64,000 bases of DNA, from positions 1,141,501-1,205,500 of the forward strand of contig NZ_CP072865.1 in NCBI RefSeq assembly GCF_017948245.1, written 5' to 3'. This stretch comes from Rhizobium sp. NLR16a. GTDB taxonomy: Bacteria > Pseudomonadota > Alphaproteobacteria > Rhizobiales > Rhizobiaceae. The position numbers and the translations under genes are program-made. A model generated the notes under the pieces. It saw nothing but the letters and a program-made list of their open reading frames with translations, did no database searches and was not told the DNA's origin. Below, one piece after another: positions 23,384-24,331 of this stretch (position 1 is its first letter; every line of letters begins with the position of its first letter).

Positions 23384-23410
23384 TTGACGCTGTTGCCGGC
23401 GGGCGATAAC
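23384..23410 (+). promoter_or_regulatory. sigma-70-type promoter of the attenuator transcript
   Basis: TTGACG (23384-23389) with GATAAC (23405-23410) 15 bases downstream, or TAACTT with 17. Transcription would begin close to 23417-23419, that is at the leader ATG, giving a leaderless or almost leaderless transcript as described for the Sinorhizobium trp leader. Confidence 0.45.
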
Positions 23411-23418
23411 TTACGTCC

Positions 23419-23487
23419 ATGAGCAGGATTTTCGCAGTCTCCACGACGTCTACGACCACCGCTTGGCGGCGGGTGGCAGACGCGTGA
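23419..23487 (+). CDS. Thr-rich leader peptide (22 residues)
   Basis: The short ORF encodes MSRIFAVSTTSTTTAWRRV followed by ADA and a stop. Five threonine codons and three serine codons lie within eight positions (residues 8-14), directly before the first arm of a set of competing hairpins. This is the layout of amino-acid operon leader peptides (compare thrL in enterobacteria). Ribosome stalling at uncharged tRNA-Thr would free segment 2 to pair with segment 3. No Shine-Dalgarno is seen, in keeping with leaderless translation. Confidence 0.6.
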   Translation: MSRIFAVSTTSTTTAWRRVADA

Positions 23488-23543
23488 ACTGAATTCCGTT
23501 CATCGCAGAAGACACCAACCCGCCGGAAACGAGCGGGTTTTTT
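23456..23543 (+). terminator. transcription attenuator with three competing hairpins
   Basis: Segment 1 (CCACCGC, 23456-23462) pairs with segment 2 (GCGGGTGG, 23469-23476). Segment 2 (GGCGGGT, 23468-23474) also pairs with segment 3 (ACCCGCC, 23518-23524). Segment 3 (AACCCGC, 23517-23523) pairs with segment 4 (GCGGGTT, 23533-23539), followed by six T: a Rho-independent terminator 36 bp before the next start. Segments 2:3 and 3:4 exclude each other, as in trp- or thr-type attenuation. Confidence 0.7.
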
Positions 23544-23578
23544 GTTGCCGCTCGTCTCCCGCATTCGAGGACGAGAAC

Positions 23579-24331
23579 ATGGACGATATCGGGAAACAAA
23601 TTGTTGCCGAGCGGACGCTTGCCGCCGCCTGCCGCTCTCTGGCCAGCCGTTATGCCGGGGCCGCCTTCGCCTATGTTTCCGGTTCCATCATGCGCGGTGA
23701 GGGGACCGAGTTTTCGGACATCGATCTCGTCGTTGTATTTCCGTCGCTCGAGCGGGCCTGGCGGGAATCCTTCACCGAAGACCGTTTTCCGGTCGAAGCC
23801 TTCGTCCATGATCCGCAGACGCTGGCGTTTTATCTCCATCAGGATGCGGAGGGCGGCTGTCCCATCATGGTCCATATGGTTGCGACGGGCAGCATCGTCG
23901 GGCCTGACATCGAGCGTGCGCGGTTCATCCAGGCGAAGGCGGCGAGCGTTCTTGCCGCAGGGCCGAAGCCTCTCGATGGCCCGAGCTACGATATGCTGCG
24001 CTATCAGGTCACCGATCTCGCCGATGACCTGCGCGGCCACCGCCCGCCTGAAGAGATTGCCGCCATCGCCGCGCTTCTCTATCAGAAGCTCGCCGATTTG
24101 ATGCTGCGCGGGCGCGGCGCATGGGCTGGTCGCGGCAAGTGGGCGCCGCGGCTCCTGCGGGAGCTCGATGTGGAACTGGCAGCAGACTTCGATGCCGCGT
24201 TCAGACTGGCGGTGCAGGGTGACGGCGCCCGGTTCCTGGCTCTCGCCGATCGGGAAATTGCCCTGCATGGCGGGCGCTTTTTCGACTGCTTCAGGCAGGA
24301 GGCTCCTGTGGAGGCGCGGCGGGGAGAATAG
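23579..24331 (+). CDS. nucleotidyltransferase-domain protein under attenuator control
   Basis: 250 residues. The N-terminal third is a minimal nucleotidyltransferase fold: YVSGSIMRGEGTEFSDIDLVVVF, with GS...DxD matching the metal-binding motif of MNT/kanamycin-type transferases. The rest is helical (DLADDLRGHRPPEEIAAIAALLYQKLADLMLRG), like the substrate-binding part of aminoglycoside or tRNA transferases. The substrate is unknown. It is the only gene behind the Thr-leader attenuator, implying a link to threonine or tRNA-Thr supply. No toxin or antitoxin partner lies next to it. Confidence 0.8.
   Translation: MDDIGKQIVAERTLAAACRSLASRYAGAAFAYVSGSIMRGEGTEFSDIDLVVVFPSLERAWRESFTEDRFPVEAFVHDPQTLAFYLHQDAEGGCPIMVHMVATGSIVGPDIERARFIQAKAASVLAAGPKPLDGPSYDMLRYQVTDLADDLRGHRPPEEIAAIAALLYQKLADLMLRGRGAWAGRGKWAPRLLRELDVELAADFDAAFRLAVQGDGARFLALADREIALHGGRFFDCFRQEAPVEARRGE

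Follow-up and report, generated by a model that had tools for sequence, protein, structure and literature searches.

Comparison of bacterial genomes points to a family of threonine attenuators placed on accessory genes in Alphaproteobacteria. Attenuators are best known from biosynthesis operons. The kind of switch is known and its targets and spread are new to us: attenuator logic here would guard an enzyme of uncharacterised function and, in related bacteria, a spare threonyl-tRNA synthetase (ThrRS) and possible detoxifying enzymes. The example from which we start lies in a 64,000-nucleotide stretch of Rhizobium sp. NLR16a DNA (the window), where positions 23384-23543, ahead of a nucleotidyltransferase (NTase) gene, very probably form a ribosome-mediated transcription attenuator responding to the level of charged tRNA-Thr. 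Its parts, all on the plus strand, are as follows.

23384-23389 and 23407-23412, plus strand: promoter-like site, TTGACG and TAACTT with a 17-nt spacer (from the sequence).
23419-23487, plus strand: leader ORF of 22 codons, MSRIFAVSTTSTTTAWRRVADA and then the stop codon, with the Thr/Ser run at codons 8-14.
23448-23462, plus strand: segment 1, holding the Thr codons ACG ACC ACC (from alignment A3 and its pair counts).
23466-23481, plus strand: segment 2, partner of segment 1 (1:2) or of segment 3 (the antiterminator, 2:3).
23485-23502, plus strand: hairpin TGAAC/GTTCA beginning at the leader stop codon, with arms 23485-23489 and 23498-23502.
23515-23526, plus strand: segment 3, the 5' arm of the terminator and also the partner of segment 2.
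23530-23543, plus strand: segment 4, the 3' arm of the terminator with six T at 23538-23543 (from the sequence).
23579-24331, plus strand: NTase gene, 250 aa, PF01909 (profile match).

The first-pass annotation of this DNA had read the region as a Thr attenuator, and as far as sequence evidence reaches that call was right: both the 22-codon ORF with its Thr/Ser run (23419-23487) and a terminator with six T ahead of the NTase gene are present. What it listed as three mutually exclusive hairpins we would rather call the pairings 1:2, 2:3 and 3:4, to which the extra hairpin at the stop codon must be added. The terminator pairs 23517-23525 with 23530-23539 in a GC-rich stem, and its T run ends 35 nt before the NTase ATG; a simple scanner missed it on the plus strand because that program limits loops to 8 nt and the actual loop has 9. 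Folding of 23418-23550 gives z = -3.1, with equally good folding in 2 of 200 shuffles. When both strands of the window were scanned for ATG-initiated ORFs with at least three consecutive Thr codons and a terminator no more than 130 nt past the stop codon, the NTase leader was the single place returned. The same scan of 79 named loci (667,028 nt) returned 37 places, all at the expected NTase-leader site and none elsewhere, which rules out a chance ORF. At the promoter-like site, the A of the leader ATG is the seventh base past TAACTT, and 96 of the 98 leaders have a site resembling TTGAC (that motif itself, TTTAC or TCGAC) at 33-38 nt from the leader ATG. This spacing supports the earlier suggestion that the transcript would start at or near the leader ATG and be leaderless; a strict-rule scan for a sigma-70 promoter upstream of the leader ORF returned none. 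The leader DNA has zero relatives in a plasmid collection at E 0.01. The E. coli thr operon leader (Rfam family Thr_leader, RF00506) has no match at gathering score in a cmscan of the 64-kb window. The four matches of that scan are a tRNA, an FMN riboswitch (RF00050; 38498-38640, minus strand), a chrB-a RNA (RF03078; 7722-7803, plus strand) and the alphaproteobacterial sRNA ar35 (RF02346; 6864-6965, minus strand).

Across genomes, the leader travels with one set of NTase genes. NTase matches occur in 71 of 148 genomes of the genus, and 50 of them are close orthologs (73-100% identity, three being split genes). Leader ORF and terminator accompany all 50. Each of these also retains the leader ATG, the reading frame as far as the Thr run, and the segments, and so do loci from other families, as the attenuator reading had predicted; this comparison rules out conservation of the terminator alone. 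Among 20 further NTase matches inspected in the genus (one more, in G097 at E 6e-4, was left out of this inspection), just one locus, L083, has a leader, and that leader has diverged. The NTase at L083 (genome G094) is matched in part with the leader kept, and at L063, L064 and L065 (G090, G086 and G023) the NTase is split into two matches with the leader likewise kept. A search of 397 genomes of the order returned 11 NTases from outside the genus, nine with a leader, and at the leader-bearing Devosia and Pleomorphomonas loci the NTases are 52-73% identical. The 79 named NTase loci include 48 at less than 72% identity, where the leader is present in 12 and absent in 36; the 12 all belong to Devosia, Pleomorphomonas or one unclassified MAG, and seven of them are contigs already among the order-search loci. 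No leader was seen at the named NTase loci of Ensifer, Sphingomonas, Bosea, Kaistia, Xanthomonas, Bordetella and others. Group B NTases (L066-L081, 49-55% identical) have neither a Thr leader nor a terminator, and linkage to the leader is therefore not general to NTases. In a tree of 58 NTases, 24 of them with a leader, the leader-bearing proteins do not form one exclusive clade: they fall together except for L083, truncated and on a long branch, which stands apart, and L127 and L156, which have no leader, lie inside the main leader group. At the level of sequence, comparison thus establishes the ORF, the stems, the terminator and the linkage to the gene, together with the presence of such a leader on an accessory ThrRS, described below.

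As in an attenuator, the leader ORF carries a run of regulatory codons, both core codons being Thr in 62 of the 66 NTase leaders (counted with corrected codon placement for L086 and L089-L094), and an intrinsic terminator stands ahead of the structural gene. Outside the NTase group the Thr run stays while the remaining peptide and the downstream gene change, so that conservation of the run, which the first-pass annotation had expected within Rhizobium, extends across families and to leaders before accessory ThrRS genes. Runs of at least three identical residues in 98 leaders consist of Thr (83) or Gly (17), with zero of Ala or Ser. At positions flanking the core, Thr does give way to Ser, Ala or Met, and the C-terminus of the peptide changes frame within Rhizobium. 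It could be argued that the RNA stems and terminator alone matter, as in a protein- or ligand-binding terminator, and that the ORF is incidental: changes by codon position across codons 2-11 (55/76/81) give a weak coding signal, and the nearly invariant core ACC ACC lies within a stem, so that RNA pairing alone could keep it, the Thr codons being inside segment 1. This is very improbable given that the ATG is kept in every close ortholog, that the sole internal deletion upstream of the core among them is of exactly 3 nt, that the Devosia nitrariae leader encodes the same STTSTTTA as the window with six synonymous differences between them, and that Thr runs of up to 7 codons precede ThrRS genes. 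The leaderless layout also resembles that of S. meliloti trpL, whose products rnTrpL and peTrpL are described as acting in trans (PMC7298713, in part), and the main product here could likewise be a terminated short RNA or peptide acting in trans, with NTase control secondary. We think this quite improbable, since the peptide beyond the Thr run varies between families, its C-terminus shifts frame within Rhizobium, and the leader adjoins the NTase gene in close orthologs.

Comparison of the leader RNAs bears on the proposed pairings. In alignment A3, which comprises 66 NTase leaders (the 50 close orthologs and 16 remote ones), 91.1% of cells are paired in the 1:2, stop-codon and 3:4 helices and 99.0% in the terminator helix. 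Both sides change in 10 of 26 pairs, against 4.1 in shuffles, and in 3 of the 5 pairs of the stop-codon hairpin; none of 500 shuffles has as high a covariation score. A control that slides pairing partners one column off brings pairing down to 34-46% and the score to 0.015-0.046, against 0.073 observed, and leaves up to 8 both-side-changed pairs, against 10 observed, so that the pair count alone is not strong. The covariation that the first-pass annotation had anticipated among the four segments is thus found in the stems; counted in one fixed register, the 2:3 antiterminator has a both-side count no higher than shuffles. In our reading of the alignment, the 2:3 bulge appears to move between families. 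In duplex swap tests on 18 representatives, with kinship ignored, cognate segment 2/3 duplexes are more stable than swapped ones (mean -21.5 versus -20.1 kcal/mol, permutation p = 0.0035), and the corresponding test for 1:2 is null (p = 0.50).

We modelled ribosome stalling with a partition function on RNA cut before segment 4, reading out the degree to which segment 3 is sequestered. Across the close orthologs, 50 leaders, the median is 0.04 for free RNA; it rises to 1.00 and 0.99 when the last Thr codons occupy the A-site, drops to 0.03 two codons later, and is 0.27 once the ribosome has reached the stop codon, which leaves the segment mostly free. A ribosome stalled upstream of the Thr codons has almost the same effect in these orthologs (median 0.84-0.88). 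The other 16 leaders, the remote ones, follow this pattern less well (free 0.30, best 0.88, core 0.41, stop 0.10), the core codon having been set one codon late for seven of them (L086 and L089-L094) here and, for those of the seven included, in the swap test. A second folding test, passed when the stall value exceeds 0.5 and the stop value is below 0.5, is passed by 53 of 66 NTase leaders and, among the further families introduced below, by 14 of 14 S51-type leaders (in which the segment is sequestered in free RNA too), 4 of 5 before GNAT acetyltransferase genes (a count that leaves out L261, from the window's own genome) and 11 of 12 before ThrRS genes. Mutually exclusive 1:2, 2:3 and 3:4 pairings, with the regulatory codons in segment 1, are found in the folding model and in the 2:3 swap test. 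With segment 4 included, the terminator is often still favoured at equilibrium, and the switch would therefore have to act during transcription. Switching during transcription is classical attenuator behaviour.

From these results we infer both the switching and its signal, charged tRNA-Thr. Transcription would start about at the leader ATG. With plentiful Thr-tRNA, the ribosome would reach the stop codon and cover segment 2, leaving segments 3 and 4 to form the terminator. When Thr-tRNA is short, the ribosome would wait at the Thr codons and cover segment 1; segment 2 would then pair with segment 3 before segment 4 exists, and polymerase would read into the NTase gene.

Related leaders also precede other genes. 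We searched with two covariance models, R1, built from NTase leaders, and R2, built from the R1 set plus the S51- and GNAT-type leaders, without ThrRS leaders; the E-values of these models are rough, and the genome searches, which used stricter filters, may miss weak copies. In genus genomes lacking a close NTase, R1 returned 14 further strong leaders among the matches listed (E 2e-11 to 4e-7), with the peptide MNNFAFQAMTMGMTTTLCGGGVGL or a nearly identical one. The next gene encodes the same kind of protein, by sequence, in 13 of the 14, and a scan of one of these proteins identified it as an S51 peptidase (PF03575, E 9e-26). At L219 (G033) no S51 gene was seen downstream of an intact-looking Thr leader, possibly an orphan. 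NTase leaders (50 of 148 genomes) and S51-type leaders (14 of 148) never share a genus genome among the matches listed, kinship being ignored. A weaker R1 match, L222, precedes a GNAT acetyltransferase gene, and R2 led to five more GNAT leaders, one of them in the window's own genome (L261; G000:C1:1022207-1022340, minus strand, E 0.0021, peptide MINSVTLTMYHIATTLPGYAGAMVRH); the terminator stem of L261 has one mismatch relative to L264. For the GNAT proteins, the matching N-acetyltransferase models include those for ArsN1 and for aminoglycoside enzymes, with every score below its cut-off. More distant matches lie before asd (L318 in G884, MYMLTIKRMTKKTPAGGAVESCAR, with Met, Lys and Thr codons, E 2.6e-4) and dapA (L244 in G530 and L253 in G539, with Lys codons, E 0.0034 and 8e-5; protein scores 205.5 and 212.2, cut-off 206.15), and these are probably attenuators of the aspartate family. 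The weak matches L220, L221 and L223-L225 were dismissed on sight as terminators after coding genes. Among 19 loci of the R2 follow-up that are not Thr leaders, two are the dapA leaders L244 and L253, L241 is leader-like and 16 were dismissed on sight; the matches L319 and L320 were also dismissed on sight. The weak match at L224 (G147) is to an unrelated terminator, immediately beyond which comes a short MNT-like ORF (…GLYLFGSAARDELGSDSDLDIF…). In the open-licence literature we found no report of a Thr attenuator before an NTase, S51 peptidase, GNAT or short ThrRS gene.

Leaders of this type also precede short ThrRS genes. In G410, which belongs to another genus of the same family, the leader MRQMFASVTTTTTIALRWPVV lies directly upstream of a ThrRS gene (R2 E 1.5e-12). 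Two ThrRS genes occur in G410 and two in G729, in each case one full-length and one of 401-405 aa, and both short ones carry a leader. The short G410 protein aligns to the thrS model only from position 170 to position 561, and to E. coli ThrRS only over residues 242-616; the N-terminal and editing domains are therefore absent. A class-wide search (385 genomes, E <= 1e-140) gave 20 ThrRS matches in 17 genomes, of which 10 are short, defined as an open frame of fewer than 520 codons. All 10 are preceded by a Thr-rich leader and then a GC-rich, terminator-like hairpin, an automatic terminator test having passed only some of them. The Thr runs reach 7 codons, and L299 has two separate TT pairs instead. 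Overall, a Thr-rich leader precedes 12 of 12 short ThrRS genes and 0 of 38 others (28 from an earlier set and 10 from the class search, the ORF reaching 600 aa or more in 37 of them), the latter count covering ATG-initiated ORFs with three consecutive Thr within 400 nt upstream. At these 38 genes, three Thr-triplet ORFs start 31 nt inside the coding sequence. R2 scores 10 of the 12 short-ThrRS leaders below E 0.001, the other two having E-values of 0.0035 and 0.097, and their own alignment (A6) is poor. Tyr462/Gly463 are kept in 116 of 120 short ThrRS among the matches listed, the other four lacking the motif, and in 11 of the 12 leader-bearing ones, L299 lacking it. Motifs at the zinc-ligand positions are kept in 120, 120 and 98 of the 120 among the matches listed, and most short ThrRS therefore do not resemble zinc-free substitutes.

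These neighbours bear on the signal. The gene behind an attenuator usually makes or charges the amino acid sensed, which is typical and not universal, and this is true of the related leaders before ThrRS, asd and dapA. Since the leader codons match the gene's amino acid there, Thr-tRNA is the likeliest signal at the NTase too. The leader might instead sense a ribosome-targeting antibiotic, the NTase being a resistance enzyme for the drug: chloramphenicol-type drugs are described as stalling ribosomes after Ala, Ser or Thr (PMC12121999, in part), a rule by which the STTSTTTA run offers stall sites, and Ser, Ala and Met do substitute at the flanking positions. The NTase profile also bears a very weak likeness to aminoglycoside and kanamycin nucleotidyltransferases in the PDB (E 0.53 and 0.6). 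We consider an antibiotic signal unlikely, because it is the Thr run that persists across four gene families, with runs of Ala or Ser missing from the 98 leaders, and because leaders of this type precede ThrRS, asd and dapA with matching codons.

The active-site residues G35, S36, D47 and D49 of the NTase are invariant in an alignment of 30 sequences, and comparisons with NCBIfam, PDB profiles and PADLOC found no close characterised relative. An aminoglycoside or lincosamide nucleotidyltransferase was rejected (no NCBIfam match at E 0.001), as was an MntA-type type VII antitoxin NTase (NF047752; 19.7 bits against a cut-off of 60); PADLOC gave two NTase matches at about E 1e-4 and none for the other three proteins scanned. 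The gene is accessory: 50 of the 148 genomes of the genus have a close ortholog. We suggest, with less assurance than for the switch itself, that the NTase, like the S51 peptidase, the GNAT enzyme and the short ThrRS, may aid survival against agents or conditions that stop the charging of Thr-tRNA. Our tentative preference is for a role in defence against blockers of Thr-tRNA charging, by analogy and because of the company the leader keeps: an S51 peptidase, a second ThrRS and a GNAT. MccG S51 peptidases, most of them from stand-alone genes, are described as cleaving processed microcin C, an inhibitor of aspartyl-tRNA synthetase (PMC9239234, in part), and ObaO is a second ThrRS that protects producers of obafluorin, a ThrRS inhibitor (PMC10619133 and PMC9854587, in part). 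Against defence, the short ThrRS keep Gly463, whose change is reported to give ObaO its resistance (PMC11252418, in part).

Another serious possibility is that the attenuator answers to ordinary shortage of threonine or zinc and that the NTase serves metabolism, perhaps that of Thr or of tRNA, with no toxic agent involved. ThrRS is a zinc enzyme, and a duplicated ThrRS is described as being used under zinc shortage in Anabaena (PMC4787780, in part); plain Thr or zinc shortage would trip the switch as well, and the asd and dapA leaders are related attenuators that serve plain biosynthesis. However, an S51 peptidase and a GNAT would be odd targets for Thr or zinc homeostasis, most short ThrRS keep the zinc-ligand motifs (at the counts given above, among the matches listed), and the NTase is accessory. 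Returning to defence, one may picture, as a conjecture, a single movable Thr attenuator of Alphaproteobacteria that serves as an alarm for blocked charging and has been wired in some lineages to a spare, editing-less ThrRS and in others to enzymes that would destroy or modify the blocker (NTase, S51 peptidase, GNAT). If so, the NTase would disarm a ThrRS inhibitor, the first nucleotidyltransferase known to us to do so, and more such inhibitors could be sought by way of the leader. More broadly, the leader may mark by its sequence the genes called for when charging of tRNA-Thr fails, predicting the signal for uncharacterised genes.

The E. coli thr leader combines a Thr-rich peptide, alternative stems and a terminator, and the NTase leader shares all three; unlike it, the NTase leader is apparently leaderless and precedes an NTase gene, not Thr biosynthesis genes. 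The S. meliloti trpLE(G) leader is described as a ribosome-dependent attenuator whose transcript starts at the leader ATG (PMC7298713, in part), with Trp codons and a Trp biosynthesis gene there, against Thr codons and an NTase here. A further parallel is toiL, an antibiotic-sensing uORF described as acting on translation and on Rho-dependent termination (PMC12121999, in part): in both, a ribosome stalled on a short ORF switches the downstream gene, although toiL, as given in that account, has no Ala, Ser or Thr codons, unlike the NTase leader. The rhizobial S51 peptidases, judging by the one scanned, belong with MccG to PF03575, and their leader points to Thr, not Asp. Like ObaO, the short ThrRS are extra to the housekeeping ThrRS; unlike ObaO, they lack the part matching E. 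coli residues 1-241, keep Gly463 and carry an attenuator.
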